From contig NZ_CP080575.1 in NCBI RefSeq assembly GCF_019575955.1, positions 496,001 to 560,000 of the forward strand: a stretch of DNA of 64,000 nt, in the 5' to 3' direction. A program made the translations under genes and the position numbers. This DNA is from Nesterenkonia pannonica (GTDB taxonomy: Bacteria > Actinomycetota > Actinomycetes > Actinomycetales > Micrococcaceae). The stretch's first letter is position 1, and each line of letters begins with the position of its first letter. This document shows, in pieces, positions 18,689 to 27,710 of the stretch. The notes beneath the pieces are model-generated. The model searched no databases, had not been told where the DNA came from, and saw nothing but the letters and a program-made list of their open reading frames with translations.

Positions 18689-18765
18689 CCCGCCCCAGGT
18701 CAGAGGGGCCGTGAAGCTCGCAGCACTCTGTAGAGTGTGCGCAAAGACGCCGCCAAGGGGACGCA

Positions 18766-19918
18766 ATGGATTCTTACGATGAAGCGAGCAGCCAACGAGC
18801 GCTCGAACAGCTGAACATCCTCGACACGCTGCCCGATGAGCGCGTGGACCGCGTCACCAGATTGGCGCAGGAGCTCTTCGACGTCCCGATGGTCAGCGTG
18901 ACCCTCCTGGACAAGGACCGTCAGTGGCGTATGTCCGAGATCGGGCTGGGCGGCCGAGAAGCTGGCCGCGAGCACGCATTCTGCGACGTCACTGTGCGTC
19001 AGCCCAATACCCTCATCGTCGAGGACGCCTCTCAGGACGAGCACTTTCACGACAACCCCTTCGTCACCGGGGACCCCCACCTGCGCTTCTACGCCGGGCA
19101 CCCCCTGCGAGCTCCCGGCGGGGAGCCCATCGGCACCCTCTGCATCATGGACAGCGCCACGCGGAGCCTGGACGCGCGCCAGCGGGCGCTTCTTCAGGAC
19201 TTGGCCCAGTGGGTCCAGACTGAGATCGCACGCCGGGCCGAGCTGGATGACCTCGAACTGATACAGCGGGCTCAGTGCCCCGGAAGCTGCCCAGCATCCC
19301 TGGCTACACCGTGGCCACAGGGGCGAAGCCCGCGCGTGCCATATCCGGGGATTTTCACGATCTGCAGCTGACCGAAGACGGCCTGCGACTCACTGTGGCG
19401 GACGTCATGGGCAAAGGTCTGGGCCCGGGGATCGTGGCAGCAGGGCTGCGCTCCACGCTGCGAGCTCTCGGACAGCGGCCCCCGCGGAGGCCATGGCTGA
19501 GGCGGACCGTCTGCTTGCCGAGGACCTGGGCGATATCGACATCTTCGTCACCGCCTTCCATGGAGACCTGAACACCTCCACGGGCATCCTGCGGTTCGTG
19601 GACGCTTAGCCACAACCTCGGGGTTCTCTTCCGCGCTTCGGGAACCAGCACAGAGCGCGCACGAGCGGACTGCCGCTCGGGATGGGGCTGGCGTCCGAGC
19701 ACGAAGAGGCGGTGGTCCACATGGAGCCCGGCGACACCTTCGTCTGCAGCAGCGACGGGCTGCTGGACCTCCTTGACCTGGACGATCCCACCGGAGACGT
19801 CGAGCGGATCTTCCGCGACGTCGAGCCTGCAGATGCGGTGGAGACCGTGCTTGATCTGGCTCGCGCTGCCGAAGACGCCGACGACGTGACGGTCGTGATC
19901 ATCAGGCGCGACGCATGA
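18766..19918 (+). CDS. GAF domain PP2C-type phosphatase (RsbU-like)
   Basis: About 383 residues. An N-terminal GAF domain (LNILDTLPDERVDRVTRLAQ to WVQTEIARRAEL, residues 12-160) is followed by a SpoIIE/PP2C phosphatase domain with ARAISGDFHDLQ, VADVMGKGLGPGIVA and SSDGLLDLLDLDD. The DAGHNLG motif is broken by GCTTAGCC at 19602. Other breaks are near 19275, 19480 and 19660. It should dephosphorylate a STAS-domain protein, and one (21868) is encoded in the same operon. Its stop overlaps the glycosyltransferase start (ATGA). Confidence 0.85.
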
Positions 19919-21883
19919 GCCGCTTACTCATCGTCATCCGCGTCGTCGCCGTCCTGGCGGTGCTGCTCGGCATCAACTATGTGGTCTGGCGCTGGCTGGA
20001 GTCCGTGAACTGGGAGGCGTGGTGGATCGCCGTGCCCCTCATCGTCGCGGAGACGTACAGCCTCATCGACACCTTCCTCTTCGCCGCGACCATGTGGAAG
20101 TCCCAGGAGCGGCCGCGGCCGACCTCGCCCCCGCAGGGCACCGTCGACGTGCTCATCACCACGTACAACGAACCCATCGGGATGGTCATGCAGACCGCTC
20201 TCGCCGCGAAGGGCATCGCCTACCCCACACCACCTACATCCTCGACGACGGGGACCGCCCCGAGATGGCCGAGGCGGCGCGTTCGGCGGGCCTCGGCTAC
20301 ATCACCCGCTCGCAGGACTGGCAGAACAAGCCGCGGCACGCCAAGGTAAGCAACCTCAACAACGCCCTGTTCCAGACGGACGGCGAGTTCCTCCTCATCC
20401 TGGACGCCGATCAGATCCCCGACCCGCTGATCCTCCACAACACCCTCGGGTACTTCGCCGACGACCCCGAGGTCGCACTGGTGCAGACCCCCAGTGGTTC
20501 ACCAACGTGGGGAGACCGACCCGCTCGGCAGCCAGGCGCCCCTCTTCTACGGGCCCATCCAACAGGGCAAGGACGGATGGAACGCCGCCTTCTTCTGCGG
20601 ATCCAACGCGGTCCTCCGGCGTGAGGCGCTCATGCAGCTGGGCATCGTCGGATACGTGCACGATCTGCAGAGCTCCACGCGGCGCACCCTGCGCGCCGCC
20701 GAGTCCCTGCTGACTCGCGAGGCCAAGCGGCACCGCTCCGCTCCCGCTCTGCAGGCTGAGCTGACTCAGCTTCGGGAGGTCACCATGCGCGCCCTCGAGG
20801 AACTGAGGAAGGGAGCCTTCCGCAGATCTCGTATACCGCGTCCACGACGCCGCAGAGAAGGCATCCCGTCGCCTCTCCTCCCAGGACGTGGAGCAGATGC
20901 GGGCGGACCTGGAGTCGCTCCAGCACCTTCCCGTTCAGCGCGACGGTGAGCTGGAAGGCATCGTCATCGACGACGCCGGGCTCCAGGCACTCATCGCCCG
21001 GGAGCACTCGCCGCTGGGCGCCGTCGAATCCGTCGCAGCCCTGCTCGATGAGCTGCGCGTAGACCGCCCCGGAGAGGCGCAGCCGATCCAGCCGCTGGCC
21101 ACCATCTCCGTCACCGAAGACATGGCCACCGCTATGCAGCTGCACTCCATGGGGTGGCGAAGCGTCTACCACCACGAGGTGCTCGCGCGTGGGCTCGCCC
21201 CCGAGGACCTGACTACGATGCTCAAGCAGCGCCTGCGCTGGGCGCAGGGAACGCTGCAGGTGATGCTGCGCGACAATCCGCTGGTGAAGAAGGGCCTCTC
21301 CGCCTACCAGCGGCTCATGTACTTCGGCACCATGTGGAGCTACCTCTCAGGCTTCGCCGCACTCGCCTACATGACCGCCCCGATCCTGTACCTCACGCTG
21401 GGCGTGCTCCCGGTGAATGCGTGGAGCGTCGACTTCTTCGCCCGCTTCATCCCGTACTTCCTGGTCAACCAGATCCTGTTCATCTACGTCTCCCGAGGCA
21501 TGAGCACCTGGCGCGGGCAGCAGTACTCCTTGGCCCTCTTCCCGCTGTGGATCAAAGCCTGCGTGACCACGGTCCTCAACGTCGTCTTCCGGCAGCCGCT
21601 GGGCTTCGTGGTCACCAAGAAGGACGGCAAGGCGGAGGGAGGACCTCCTTGGCGGGAGATCTGGCCGCAGCTGACCTTCATGGTGCTGCTCGCCGTGGCG
21701 CTCATCGTCGGCCTCGCGCGTCTGGCCGTCGGAACGGCGGACGGCACCGGCACCCTCGTCAACACGATCTGGGTGGCGTACATCCTGATCGTTCTCAGTG
21801 TGATAATTCAGGCAGCCCGATACCGCGGCCCGGCAGCGGCCCTCGACGACGACCCCGAAGGAACATCATGGACATCAGCGTGA
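19915..21883 (+). CDS. BcsA-like processive glycosyltransferase (GT2) with helical insertion
   Basis: About 656 residues, membrane-bound. Two N-terminal helices precede the GT-A domain: [29 protein letters not shown] (HAKAGNLN expected; GTAAGC at 20344), [10 protein letters not shown] and [11 protein letters not shown]. An insertion of roughly 140 charged, helix-prone residues follows (about 20640-21100), then [20 protein letters not shown] and [12 protein letters not shown], the product-binding and Q-x-x-R-W motifs. Four or more C-terminal helices form the channel. Breaks lie near 20222, 20492 and 20815. It probably makes an exported polysaccharide. Confidence 0.85.
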
Positions 21884-22199
21884 CCACCCCAGGCGACTAC
21901 GCCGTGCTCAGCCCGCAGGGAAGGCTGACCGCCGTGGGAGCGCCGATGCTGCGGAAGAATGTGGACCGTCTGCTCGAGGAGGGCAGCACCCGCATCGTCA
22001 TCGACCTCTCTCAGACCTCCTTCGTGGACTCCTCAGGCCTCGGCGCTCTCATCGGAGGACTGAAGGCAGCGCGTGTTGCCGGGGCGACCTCCGCATCGCG
22101 GCCGCCACCCCCGCGGTGATGAACGTGCTGAAGCTCACCAACCTCGACAAGGTGCTGCGCACCTATTCGTCCTCTGAGGCAGCCTTCGGCGATGGGTGA
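21868..22199 (+). CDS. STAS domain anti-sigma factor antagonist-like protein (RsbV-like)
   Basis: About 110 residues. The STAS core reads GRLTAVGAPMLRKNVDRLL, then IVIDLSQTSFVDSSGLGALIGGLKAAR, where the Ser pair in VDSSGLGAL is the usual phosphorylation site. One frameshift near 22080 (lost G) hides the C-terminal helix LRIAAATPAVMNVLKLTNL. The start lies inside the end of the glycosyltransferase gene. It should be the switch protein between the PP2C phosphatase upstream and the kinase downstream. Confidence 0.85.
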
Positions 22200-22610
22200 C
22201 CTCGACAACTGCTGCCGGGTCAGCGGCGAAGCCGAGCTGGCGCTCGTCGACAGCGTCCTCGATGAGTTCAGCAGCCTGTGCGCCCGGGTGGGGAGGTCAG
22301 CGATGATGAGCGGGATCAGTTCTCCCTGGCGGTCAGCGAGCTGCTCACGAACATGATCACTCATGGGGAGACCGACGACGCCTCCGGCGTCCGCATCAAC
22401 GCGTGCTTGTGCGTCAGGCCGGACCGTCTCACCGGCACCCTCAGCGACACTGCTCAGGAGGCCGAGGTGGTTCTCGACGGTGTGCGCATGCCGGATCCGA
22501 TGGCCGAGTCGGGCAGAGGCCTTGCCATCTCCACCATGATCCTCGACAGCCTCGAGCACACCACGGACACCGGAAACGTGTGGAGCTTCTGGCGCTCCCG
22601 GGGCCACTGA
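22192..22610 (+). CDS. ATP-binding serine kinase/anti-sigma-like protein (RsbW-like)
   Basis: About 139 residues in the HATPase_c fold. The N-box is FSLAVSELLTNMITHG and the G-box is ESGRGLAISTMILDSL, as in RsbW/SpoIIAB-type kinases. A frameshift near 22288 separates the N-terminal strand (MGDLDNCCRVSGEAELALV) from the rest. It overlaps the STAS gene. No sigma factor gene follows, so its output target may be the glycosyltransferase or a distant protein. Confidence 0.8.
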
Positions 22611-22677: not shown

Positions 22678-24125
22678 ATGGCACGTATTGCGGTCACCGG
22701 AGCAACTGGCTACATAGGTGGGCGCCTCGTGCCCCACCTGCTGCAGGAAGGGCACACTGTCCGCGTCCTCACGCGGCGCGCAGAGTCCCTCCGGGATGTT
22801 CCCTGGCGGAAGGACGTGGAGGTTGTCGAGGGCGACCTGTCAGACATTGAGCGCGCTCGCGAGCTCTGCACCGACATGGACGTCGTCTACTTCCTCGTCC
22901 ACTCCATGACGGGCGGCTCCGACTTCGCCGCCGTCGACAAGCAGTGTGCTGAGGCGGTGGGATCTGCGGCCAAGGAGTGCGGTGTGCGCAGCATCGTGTA
23001 TCTTTCGGGGCTCCACCCCGAGGGCGAGCTCAGTCCGCACCTGCGCTCGCGCGTCGAGGTCGGCGAGATCCTCGAGGCCAGCGGCGTACCCGTGCTCACC
23101 CTCCAGGCCGGTCTGGTCATCGGCTCCGGCTCGGCCAGCTTCGAAATGATCCGCCACCTCACCGACGTGCTGCCTGCGATGCCGTCGCCGCGCTGGGTCC
23201 TGAACAGGGTGCAGCCCATCGCCGTGCGGGACGCTCTGCACTACCTCACCCGGGCAGCCGATGTGGAGCTGACCGAAAGCGTCCGTCGCGACATCGGCGG
23301 CCCCGACGTGCACACCTACGCCCAACTGATGAAGCGCTACGCGCGCGCCGCGCTTCCGGGAGCCGATCGTGATGCCGCTGCCCGTGCTCACGCCATGGCT
23401 GGCCGCACAGTGGGTCAACCTCGTCACCCCCATCCCGCGTTCGCTGGCCATCCCGCTCGTGCAGTCCCTGCAGCACGACTGCCTCGTCAAGGGCAACAGG
23501 ATCGATGACCTCATTCCGCCTCCGGACTCCGGACTGACGGACTATGACACCGCCGTGGGTCTGGCGCTGGAGAAGATGTCCGCCGACCTCGTCGAGACCA
23601 CATGGGCCGGAGCCCACCCGCTCGAGACTCCTCCGAACCTCTGCCCTCCGACCCCGACTGGTCCGGCCGCACCGTCCTGATCGACAAGCGGGAAGCCATC
23701 AGCACCGCCTCGCCCGAGGCGGTCTTCAGCGTCATCGAGAGCATCGGCGGCGAGAAGGGCTACTTCTCCCTGTCAAGGCGTGGCGTCTGCGCGGACTCGC
23801 CGACAAGCTCATAGGCGGCGTCGGGCTCGGCCGCGGCCGCCGGAGCAGGAGGAGCTGCAGCTGGGCGACGCGGTGGACTGGTGGCGGGTGGAGAGCCTGG
23901 ACCCAGGCAGACTGCTGCGGCTCCGAGCTGAGATGAAGACCCCGGGGCAGGCCTGGCTCGAATTCCGCGTCGAGCCCGACGGCGATGGTTCGATCCTGAC
24001 CCAGCGCGCCATCTTTTCCCCTCGGGGCTCGGGGTCGGGCCTACTGGCTGGCGCTGGCGCCGTTCCACGCGATCATCTTCCGCAAGATGGTCGCGCGGCT
24101 CACGGCTGAGGCCGAGGCTCGGTAG
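22678..24125 (+). CDS. NAD(P)-binding SDR with C-terminal DUF2867 domain
   Basis: About 482 residues. The N-terminal Rossmann domain starts RIAVTGATGYIGGRLVPHLL and continues VYFLVHSM and IVYLSGLHPEG; VQPIAVRDALHYL is a typical later element. The C-terminal third (VLIDKREAISTASPEAVFSV to IFRKMVARL) matches DUF2867/SRPBCC-like. Breaks occur near 23355, 23620, 23775 and 24025. Genes of this type occur in light-induced clusters with photolyase and carotenoid genes. The 3-prime end overlaps the convergent marR gene. Confidence 0.75.
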
Positions 24126-25281: not shown

Positions 25282-26170
25282 TGAGCGTCGTGCCCGCCAG
25301 CAGCGATCTCGGCCTCTACACCAGCTCCGCCCAGGCCGCGGCCGCTGGTGATTGATGCCTACTCGACCTCCTTCGGCCTTGCGACCAGCCTGCTGCCCGC
25401 TGAGACGCGCACAGGCATCCGCAGCATCTACGCGCTGGTGCGCGTCGCCGACGAGATCGTCGATGGAACAGCAGAGGAGGCGGGGCTCGACGCGGAGCAG
25501 CAGCGCGAGGTCCTCGACGCGCTCGAGAGTGAGACCCTCGAGGCCCTCGAGCGAGGGTTCAGCGCCAACCTCGTCGTCCACGCCTTCGCGGTCGCGGCCC
25601 GCACGTCCTCGCTCGAAGCCTCGCTGGTGACCGCATTCTTCGCATCCATGCGACGGGATCTGGAGCCCGTGCAGTCGCTGAGCCGTGAGGAGTACAGCAC
25701 CTACATCTACGGCTCCGCCGAAGTCGTCGGGCTGATGTGCCTGCGCGTGTTCCTGATGCACGAGACGCTCACCCCGGAGGAGCGCGCCGACGCCGAGGCG
25801 GGCGCCTCCAGCCTCGGAGCCGCGTTTCAGAAGGTGAACTTCCTACGCGACCTCGGGAGGACGCCCAGCAGAGGGGCAGGGCGTACTTTCCTGGGACCGT
25901 GCCCGGGCAGCTCAGCGAGTCGGAGAAGGTCGCGTTCCTGCGCGAGATCGAGGCGGACCTCGCAGCGGCGCGCAAAGCCCTGCCGCTCCTGCCGCCCGGG
26001 CCGCGCAGGGCCACCGCCCTGGCTGCATCCCTCTTCGGGAGCTCGCGGCCAGGCTCAGAACCACTCCGGTCGAAGAGCTGCAGAGCCGACGCGTCAGCGT
26101 GCCCACACGTACCAAGCTGCGCCTGCTCATGGCAGTTCTCGCGGCCGAAGCAGCAGGAGGCCTGCGATGA
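25281..26170 (+). CDS. crtB: Phytoene synthase
   Basis: About 297 residues; condenses two GGPP to phytoene. The sequence shows DAYSTSFGLATSLLP, IYALVRVADEIVDG (first Asp-rich motif) and AFQKVNFLRDLGR plus the second Asp-rich stretch in another frame (EDAQQRGRAYFPG). Breaks lie near 25345 and 25855, and about 26040. The stop overlaps crtI. No GGPP synthase gene (crtE) is in the window, so the precursor comes from elsewhere. Confidence 0.9.
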
Positions 26171-27710
26171 AGCGCGGACGCACAGAGACCAAGAGCGCCA
26201 TCGTGATCGGCGGGGGCTTCTCAGGCCTCGCTACGGCCGCCCTGCTCGCCAAAGACGGCATCGATGTGACGGTGCTCGAAGGCCGCGACACTCTGGGCGG
26301 ACGGGTAGGCGAGTGGCACGAGCAGGGCTTTCGATTCGAGACCGGCCCCTCCTGGTACCTGATGCCCGAGGTCTTCGACCGCTTCTTCGAGCAGATGGGC
26401 ACCTCCACCGAGGCGCAGCTGGACCTCGTCACCCTCGACCCGGCCTACCGGGTCTTCTTCGAAGAGGACCCTGACCCCTTCGACCTCCCGGACCAGGGTT
26501 CCCTCCAGGCGCTGAAGGCGCTGGAGAAGGAACCGGGCTCCCTCGACGAGTACATGCGGTCCGCCGCCGTGGCCTGCCGTCTCGCCACGGACCGGCTGCT
26601 CTACTCCACGTACAGCTCGCTCAAGGACTTTACCGACCCCGCTCTGCTTCGCCATCTGCCCCGGCTGCTGCGCCTGCTGGCCGAACCGATGGAACGCTTC
26701 ATCAGCAGGCACACCTCCGACTCACGCGTGCAGAAGGTGCTCGGATATCCGGCCGTCTTCCTGGGCACCTCGCCGAAGGACGCGCCCAGCCTCTATCACC
26801 TGATGAGCCATCTGGACATCAATCAGTCGGTTCTCTATCCCCGCGGAGGGTTCACCGCCATCGTGCAGGCTGCGGCTCGCCTGGCCGAGGACCACGGCGC
26901 TGACGTGCGCACCGGATGCAGAGTCCAGCACATCGCTGCGTCAAAGGCCGTGCCACCGGAGTCCACTTCACCGATGCCGAGGACGACGGCAATTCCTGGA
27001 GGCCGACGCGGTGGTCACCAGCGCAGACATGCACCACACCGAGACGCGGCTGCTCTCCCCGGAGCACCGCACGCGCTCCGACCGCGACTGGACGCGCAGG
27101 GATCCCGGCCCCGGGGCCGTCTTGGCGCTGCTCGGGGTGGAGGGCGAGCTTCCGGAGCTGGCGCACCACTCGCTGTTCTTCACTGAGGACTGGCAGAAGG
27201 GCTTCGACGAGATCGCGGGGGTCCGCGCGCCCGCCGGGCCCCCGCGATCCGTGTACGTGTCTTAAGCCCAGCGCCACCGATGACGTCGCACCGGAGGGCA
27301 CGAGAACCTCTTCGTCCTGGTGCCTGTCCGCGCCGATGAGAGTCTCGGAGGAGGCGGCGTCGACGGAGCGGGGACGCCCAGGTGGAGCAGATCGTCGACG
27401 AGTCCATCGACCAGATCGCGGCGTGGTAGGCATCGACGGTCTGAAGGACCGTGTGCGGGTTCGCCGAAGCATCGGCCCTGCAGATTTCGCCCGCGAGTAC
27501 GGCGCCTGGAAGGGCGGGGCGCTCGGACCGGCCCACACCCTGCGCCAGAGCGCGTTCTTCCGCGGCCCCATCCGCTCCCCGAAGCTCGACGGGCTCTACT
27601 ACACCGGCAGCACCACCATGCCGGGCATCGGCGTGCCCATGTGCCTGATCAGCGCCGAACTGGTGCGGATGTCGCTGCGACGGGCCGCCGGGAGGCCCAC
27701 CGATGCCTGA
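26167..27710 (+). CDS. crtI: Phytoene desaturase
   Basis: FAD enzyme of about 515 residues converting phytoene to lycopene. The dinucleotide motif is AIVIGGGFSGLATAALLA, then GGRVGEWHEQGFRFETGPSWYLMP cut here, YPRGGFTAIVQAAARLAE and the C-terminal signature GLYYTGSTTMPGIGVPMCLIS. Frame breaks are near 26945, 26990, 27258, 27300 and 27375. The one at 27258 creates a stop on CTTAAGCC, where Arg-Pro is expected. It overlaps crtB and crtYe. Confidence 0.9.

Follow-up and report, generated by a model that had tools for sequence, protein, structure and literature searches.

Control by cyclic di-GMP (c-di-GMP) has its textbook example in the bacterial cellulose-type synthases, and a four-gene cluster of Nesterenkonia pannonica raises the question of what governs a synthase of that fold when it is encoded among the parts of a partner switch. 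The cluster lies at positions 18766-22610, on the forward strand, of the 64,000-nucleotide stretch analysed here (the window; contig NZ_CP080575.1, positions 496,001 to 560,000), and comprises genes for a GAF-PP2C phosphatase of the RsbU/SpoIIE type (18766-19918), a BcsA-like processive family 2 glycosyltransferase (GT2; 19915-21883), a single-domain STAS protein of the RsbV type (21868-22199) and an RsbW-type HATPase, predicted to be a serine kinase (22192-22610). The answer favoured here is a post-translational partner switch in which the GT2 is itself the effector, with neither a sigma factor nor a diguanylate cyclase in between, and we place its probability at about 0.6; in other words, a polysaccharide synthase is the likely direct output of this partner switch. 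A sequence-only reading of the window had proposed a wiring of this kind, and the coordinates, order and domains that it gave for the four overlapping genes are borne out by Pfam and by the sequence, although it left unstated a caveat on their intactness (see below). It had also described the trio as free of a sigma factor, and there is indeed no sigma gene inside the window cluster. The unit is real, conserved and more general than that reading had proposed.

Conservation of the gene order had been set beforehand as a check on the proposal, and the order passed it both in a class-wide search and in a set of named genomes. In the former, which covered 393 genomes with a GT2 cut-off of E 1e-150, the GT2 was found in 23 genomes, the window's own included, and in all 22 of the others the STAS and HATPase genes lie directly downstream of it; the PP2C gene is directly upstream in 19 of these, downstream in 2 and absent from the locus in 1. 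The named set derives from a scan that found 435 relatives with a GT2, of which 80 are listed, and all counts given for this set rest on those 80. One (L051) was dropped, being the same strain as L050 with an identical hit layout, which leaves 79 distinct loci from Nocardioides, Arthrobacter, Pseudarthrobacter, Cellulomonas, Geodermatophilus, Microbacterium, Clavibacter, Prescottella and other genera. At 71 of the 79 the STAS and HATPase genes follow directly downstream on the same strand (72/80 with L051 counted), and 65 of these 71 loci also have a PP2C gene directly upstream. The eight exceptions comprise a contig that ends at the GT2 (L053), three loci with the STAS-HATPase pair on the opposite strand of the same locus (L081, L104 and L121), which were scored as misses, and four with no such pair in the locus (L071, L090, L103 and L124) but with a pair of STAS and RsbW-type HATPase genes elsewhere in the genome, adjoining a GT2 in the genomes of L071 and L090 and a PP2C gene without a GT2 for L103 and L124. 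Three family samples, in which the GT2 occurs in 51/244, 27/201 and 35/199 genomes, added 78 new loci, these being the best-scoring only, up to 30 per search, and counting separately L208 and L210, over which a single GT2 is split; 72 of the 78 have STAS as well as HATPase, and at the threshold used STAS gave no match in 5 and HATPase none in 1. Such an arrangement is far beyond chance. The GT2-STAS-HATPase series is the fixed core and the PP2C gene is the most mobile piece, such that the four-gene unit of the sequence-only reading stands in its constant core and not in the position of its phosphatase.

The same association is seen at closer range in a panel of 57 relatives plus the window's own genome (G000), where strong GT2 matches (E 1.5e-157 or better) occur in 7 of the 29 same-genus genomes, in one genome of the same family (G035) and in one of another family (G052). 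Within the genus the STAS gene is present, as a single copy, in 7/7 GT2-bearing genomes and in 0/18 GT2-lacking ones (search at E 1e-5, covering 18 of the 22 GT2-lacking genomes, with G006, G008, G024 and G025 excluded), a co-occurrence for which Fisher's test gives 2e-6 with shared ancestry ignored. There being one STAS match per GT2-bearing genome, no second close antagonist protein was found in these genomes. Two loci depart from the common pattern in their synthase gene. In Arthrobacter sp. ISL-30 (L133), PP2C, STAS and HATPase genes are accompanied by only a 51-residue GT2 remnant between the PP2C and STAS genes, as if this were an operon from which the synthase was lost. The second GT2 of G035 (L040, 6425-8368) has kept the insert described below and is missing the QxxRW stretch; its 17 kb locus gave no STAS, HATPase or PP2C match, and it is a dead or repurposed paralogue.

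The synthase itself resembles BcsA in its fold and in its DxD, TED, QxxRW and FxVTxK motifs. The structural model of the GT2 from an intact same-genus locus (L035; predicted local distance difference test score, pLDDT, 79.6) has BcsA as its best match (Foldseek, 9b8v, E 3.1e-27), while Pfam recognises Cellulose_synt in the window at 20888-21880 (4.1e-14), with Glyco_trans_2_3 matched there too. In a set of 173 operons, from which L032 was excluded because its GT2 is split into two open reading frames (ORFs), the TED, QxxRW and gating-loop FxVTxK motifs are present in 172/173 GT2s and LDADQ in 158/173; the translations of the window gene contain LDADQ, SVTED, QRLRW and FVVTKK. A glutamate eight residues before QxxRW (169/173) aligns with a glutamate of Escherichia coli BcsA. 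By our own mapping it may correspond to the glutamate which, in Rhodobacter BcsA, forms half of a PilZ-controlled latch on the gating loop (PMC10374906, PMC5567048). The PilZ domain is where the resemblance ends: none was found by Pfam (E 0.1) in the GT2s of L035, L038 and L039 or in the window fragment, and the control, L282, was positive.

A further difference from BcsA is the distance from the RR of CGSNAVLRR to TED, which is 158-179 residues in 172/173 actinobacterial relatives as against 14 in PilZ-type BcsA; in the window it spans about 163 codons (20623-21112). When the insert of L035 is modelled alone with AlphaFold2, it forms three long helices (pLDDT 84). The class-specific region of plant cellulose synthases presumably lies at the same place. 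Inserts in the catalytic region of the plant enzymes are thought to affect oligomerisation (PMC6821405). Against the NCBIfam CelA equivalog the GT2 of L035 scores 362 bits, under the cut-off of 699. Its product is probably a beta-glucan, and it may be acylated, since OpgC-type genes occur near 15/79 of the actinobacterial GT2s, as hits to an acyltransferase query from Pantoea, and on several of the plasmid clusters discussed below; none was recognised in the window. Any one of four GH26 or OpgC queries hits 27/79 named loci. GT2s of Cellulomonas with 35-39% identity to curdlan synthase have been published (PMC3544764), but no link was made between those enzymes and the present GT2, and curdlan synthase was not adopted as its identity.

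The remaining genes appear, as judged by family membership, to supply the parts of an RsbU/V/W-type module, these being a sensor-PP2C, a single-domain STAS protein and a stand-alone kinase. In the window Pfam finds GAF at 18766-19251 (3.2e-16), STAS at 21868-22113 (3.6e-11) and HATPase_c_2 at 22278-22607 (9.4e-12), and the SpoIIE/PP2C part is matched by a homologue in three frames over 18763-19912; the intact PP2C homologue of L035 scores 3.1e-34 for SpoIIE and 6e-13 for GAF. The STAS protein is above the cut-off of the anti-sigma factor antagonist family TIGR00377 (76 against 53 bits), and it does carry, at 22024-22050, the VDSSGLGAL motif pointed out by the sequence-only reading. Its predicted phosphorylated serine has its codon at 22030-22032, a position assigned by analogy with S58 of SpoIIAA. 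The motif DSSGLGAL is found in 79/83 STAS proteins (L031-L039 and L045-L124) and its shorter form, DSSGL, in 167/173. The kinase has HATPase_c_2 without HisKA in both L035 and the window, and a loose N-box pattern, E...N, is present in 172/173 HATPases. The input appears to be the variable part of the module, in that REC takes the place of GAF in some phosphatases (L062 is a REC-SpoIIE protein by Pfam, and a REC-like motif, crudely defined, is present in 32/148 upstream PP2Cs). The proposed GAF-sensed input thus holds for the window and is not essential to the module. A GAF histidine kinase gene, recognised as such by Pfam, lies downstream at L108.

If these proteins act as their families do, the HATPase would phosphorylate the first serine of DSSGLGAL in the STAS protein, as RsbW does RsbV, and the PP2C would strip the phosphate once its N-terminal sensor, GAF or in some relatives REC, is activated, such that the binding partner of the STAS protein, or that of the kinase, would depend on the phosphorylation state. 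From the outputs that the genomes lack, the end effector would be the GT2. The dephosphorylated STAS protein would most likely dock on the cytosolic face of the synthase, probably on the helical insert before TED, and its docking would release the gating loop, replacing the role of c-di-GMP and PilZ in BcsA. Alternatively, in the manner of RsbW, it may be the kinase that binds and blocks the synthase until the STAS protein captures it. Both forms fit the data equally; on our analysis we would lean to contact by the STAS protein, as with SiaC. In either form, protein contact is the means by which, we infer, the trio gates the synthase. The wider proposition, that there is a PilZ-less BcsA-like class in Actinomycetota, Proteobacteria and perhaps, from one locus, Cyanobacteria that is gated directly by a switch protein on the helical insert before TED, is put forward tentatively, at somewhat less than even odds.

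The choice of the GT2 as effector follows from the outputs that were looked for and, in several genomes, not found, namely a sigma factor and a GGDEF domain. Six same-genus carriers (G007, G010, G011, G012, G018 and G021) have no sigma factor of the SigB/F/G type (TIGR02980, cut-off 234 bits; sigma factors of the extracytoplasmic function, ECF, type were not searched for). Each has a single hit to this profile, of about 130 bits and in a frame of 457-510 residues, which from its size we take to be the primary sigma factor, RpoD. A second sigma gene, in G027 and G000, sits among ORFs which we read as flagellin, fliD and flgK/L-like, and is flagellar by this context. When 89 GT2 loci were compared with SigB/F/G, flagellar and primary sigma queries, no gene of the SigB/F/G type was found near the GT2, and the only sigma gene found was that for the primary sigma factor, in 4 loci (L031, L032, L057 and L061). 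No GGDEF match was obtained in 8/20 GT2 genomes (G010, G011, G012, G018, G027, G209, G225 and G970), among which are 5 of the 7 same-genus carriers, each 97-99% complete. In G011, G012 and G018 neither a SigB/F/G sigma factor nor a diguanylate cyclase was found, ECF sigma factors again not having been searched for, and the HATPase of the operon is the sole short-open-frame HATPase_c_2 protein among the matches listed (9/10, 9/12 and 10/12, respectively). Since SigB/F/G was not found in six of the seven same-genus carriers, nor GGDEF in five, sigma release and c-di-GMP are both unlikely as outputs in the carriers of the genus, as is a cognate sigma factor as the sole target of the kinase. In the window genome the sole GGDEF match (L293, G000:C1:977500-985500) is a GGDEF-EAL-like ORF that adjoins another GT2-like ORF, which is possibly a separate, c-di-GMP-controlled polymer system.

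The association of GT2 and trio is not only actinobacterial, the setting in which the sequence-only reading had placed it. Eight of 13 hand-picked proteobacterial plasmid stretches (two of Pantoea, one each of Salmonella, Chimaeribacter, Paracoccus seriniphilus and Pseudooceanicola, and two of Sphingobium) carry a related GT2 of about 605 residues within a few genes of the trio, which is annotated there as SpoIIE or response-regulator phosphatase, STAS and ATP-binding genes. The six clusters outside Sphingobium have OpgC or acyltransferase genes and DUF3131 alongside. Elsewhere in the sample, the P. liaowanqingii stretch has SpoIIE but no STAS, the stretch of Rhodobacteraceae SC52 has neither, and the Vibrio record carries no annotation. 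No trio was found at two classical bcsA loci, those of Neorhizobium and Caballeronia. The proteobacterial GT2s have SED in place of TED, with QRFKY in the two printed sequences, no PilZ in the three tested, and 56-60 residues at the insert site in the nine measured, which is shorter than in the actinobacterial enzymes. The clusters on the enterobacterial plasmids (L274, L275, L276 and L278) additionally contain a large gene for a response regulator and three for DUF3131 proteins, and 3/4 encode a globin as well.

On a Nostoc plasmid a related GT2 is accompanied by STAS, DUF3131 and a weak match to GH26, and by a SpoIIE gene on the opposite strand; none of the ORFs listed there was seen to encode an HATPase. 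This GT2 (L246, 6918-8903) has a long insert before HHAKAGN and not before TED, at a place that we presume to be near the plant-conserved region of plant synthases. A single system across phyla was considered and not adopted: OpgC is common (15/79), but queries for DUF3131, a constant of the enterobacterial clusters, hit 0/79 named actinobacterial loci. Given this and the unseen HATPase of Nostoc, common descent of the whole cluster is not established.

How the module compares with known systems may be considered from both ends, that of the switch and that of the synthase. With the RsbU/RsbV/RsbW and SpoIIE/SpoIIAA/SpoIIAB modules of Bacillus subtilis it shares a sensor-PP2C, a DSSGLG STAS protein and an HATPase_c_2 kinase encoded by adjacent genes, whereas its constant companion is a synthase, with no sigma gene in the cluster and no SigB/F/G in six genomes of the genus. 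The nearest precedent, one that the sequence-only reading had missed, is the Bgr system of Sinorhizobium meliloti, in which a partner switch (BgrU/BgrW/BgrV) likewise stands over a PilZ-less BcsA-like GT2, BgsA, the synthase of the mixed-linkage beta-glucan, and acts on it through the diguanylate cyclase BgrR (Baena 2019, as summarised in PMC7647112). Unlike Bgr, the present module has no linked cyclase, 8/20 of its genomes gave no GGDEF match, and its GT2 has the large insert. In SiaA/B/C-SiaD of Pseudomonas aeruginosa there is again a phosphatase and kinase pair, and an unphosphorylated antagonist-like protein activates an enzyme by binding to it (PMC8457831); there, however, SiaC is a DUF1987 protein, the phosphosite is a threonine and the enzyme is a diguanylate cyclase (PMC7647112), where here we have STAS and a synthase. 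Indeed, as far as the available text of these two papers goes, the known enzyme outputs (SiaC-SiaD, HsbA-HsbD, BgrV-BgrR and MtT-MtG) are all cyclases. For EpsW-EpsZ, a response regulator is described as acting directly on a polysaccharide enzyme (PMC12802240). SypA/SypE of Vibrio fischeri and HmpU/V/W of Nostoc punctiforme are alike in placing polysaccharide traits under a STAS protein, kinase and phosphatase, with targets that are unknown, and differ in not being tied to a single processive synthase in the available part of PMC8256260. Accessory block 3b of Klebsiella pneumoniae resembles the enterobacterial plasmid clusters, and is listed in the part of PMC12974863 available without a mechanism; the plasmid GT2s differ from the present one in the motifs, insert length and DUF3131 neighbours given above. 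The PP2C-GT2-STAS-HATPase wiring, which the sequence-only reading believed to be undescribed, surfaced in none of the listings from searches of the open-licence literature, which is weak evidence of absence; as regards novelty, that claim is to be qualified by the switch over a beta-glucan synthase, through a cyclase, already in print.

Several observations weigh against direct gating of the GT2 or lend it no support. Mean-field direct-coupling analysis (173 paired operons, effectively 83 at 80% identity) spread its STAS-GT2 signals over all segments of the GT2 and gave no clean STAS-HATPase control, the strongest pair between these two proteins falling at the overlapping gene ends; common ancestry dominates its output. 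Neither GT2-STAS nor PP2C-GT2 fusions turned up in the loci that were checked, the fold of the insert has no match in the PDB (best E 0.41), and the GRG pattern of the ATP lid is loose in the HATPases (126/173). Many GT2 genomes outside the genus do have SigB/F/G sigma factors and GGDEF proteins: of the 20 searched, 6 pass the sigma cut-off and 12 have GGDEF, the window's own being among the latter with one match. Mixed outputs are therefore possible outside the genus. At one Sphingobium locus the gene just ahead of the GT2 encodes a separate PilZ-domain protein, and some relatives may therefore still sense c-di-GMP. G007 and G010, the two relatives nearest to the window genome, have their primary sigma gene at a distance of about 4-7 kb from the cluster, which is taken as chance.

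These observations bear on the alternatives in different ways. Were the switch transcriptional, the kinase would serve as anti-sigma factor to a sigma factor encoded elsewhere, whether ECF, flagellar or primary, and the synthase would merely ride along in the operon or belong to the regulon. Such is the classical role of RsbU/V/W trios, and the TIGR00377 match, the 6/20 genomes with SigB/F/G and the primary sigma gene within 4/89 loci would all be in keeping with it; however, SigB/F/G-type genes lie near the GT2 in 0/89 loci (ECF not being searched for), 6/7 same-genus GT2 genomes are without one, the additional sigma gene in G027 and G000 has a flagellar context, and the STAS gene tracks the GT2 exactly (7/7 and 0/18) where a regulator of sigma should persist without it. 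We regard this explanation as quite unlikely. A relay of the Bgr type, with the trio acting on a diguanylate cyclase and the synthase activated by c-di-GMP, has a direct published analogue in S. meliloti (PMC7647112), where the PilZ-less BgsA binds c-di-GMP through its C-terminus (PMC5567048), and a SpoIIE-HATPase protein of Burkholderia glumae reduces both c-di-GMP and the formation of pellicles (PMC7444824). A GGDEF-EAL gene near the GT2 in 5/79 named loci, along with the Sphingobium PilZ gene, points the same way. The same 5/79 means that such a gene is not a conserved neighbour, and with no GGDEF match in the 8/20 genomes, including the five nearly complete ones of the genus, the relay appears very unlikely.

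That the trio acts on some other partner in the pathway, be it a protein of export, acylation or degradation or an unlinked regulator, is unlikely as well: OpgC-type and GH26-type genes do recur near the GT2 (15/79 and, for either, 27/79), but the neighbourhoods of most of the 79 GT2s gave no such match and none was recognised in the window, and the near-constant set is GT2, STAS and HATPase. A different doubt concerns the window genome, in which the cluster could be a decayed pseudo-operon. None of its four genes is an intact ORF, and there are at least seven frame breaks, in the PP2C gene near 19275 and between about 19410 and 19500, in the GT2 gene near 20223, 20493 and 20813, in the STAS gene near 22085 and in the HATPase gene near 22285; homologues match the PP2C gene in three pieces, the GT2 gene in four tblastn pieces over three frames, and the STAS and HATPase genes in two frames each. 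Such breaks extend beyond the cluster, however, since another window gene is matched in three frames and one sigma gene is in two pieces, and the cluster motifs that were checked have been kept. The assembly, a single contig of 2.70 Mb, has a completeness of 62.5% and yields the primary sigma gene only as a fragment, for which reason the breaks are likely to be assembly errors, and decay appears quite improbable. The breaks were left unrepaired, and the analysis uses intact homologues of relatives; the seven other same-genus carriers are 97-99% complete, and six of them have an intact GT2 ORF (L031 and L033-L037), that of G010 (L032) being in two ORFs. Read from the sequence, the genes overlap by 4 bases between PP2C and GT2 (ATGA at 19915-19918), 16 between GT2 and STAS (21868-21883) and 8 between STAS and HATPase (22192-22199).

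What emerges is a large PilZ-less sister group of BcsA with an RsbV/RsbW pair as its near-constant companions. Should the gating be direct, this would be a second way of controlling a processive synthase, by phosphorylation and without a sigma factor or c-di-GMP, and a biosynthetic enzyme would become an output of partner switching, such that the targets of SypA and HmpV could be tested by analogy. A function would also be suggested for the accessory clusters of enterobacterial plasmids and of Klebsiella.

Around the window cluster, the flanking genes that were scanned encode a photolyase, an epimerase-like protein and an NAD(P)-binding protein, none of them polysaccharide-related. A tRNA-Val called by ARAGORN at 22734-22815 was rejected, as it lies inside the epimerase-like ORF and has no Rfam match. 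Further along, a single ORF at 25348-27186 joins a phytoene synthase to a downstream domain of the amine-oxidase family (phytoene-desaturase-like); the fusion is natural, or else a frame error has run two genes together. It is preceded by a NUDIX gene, possibly for an isopentenyl diphosphate (IPP) isomerase, with the photolyase gene further upstream.

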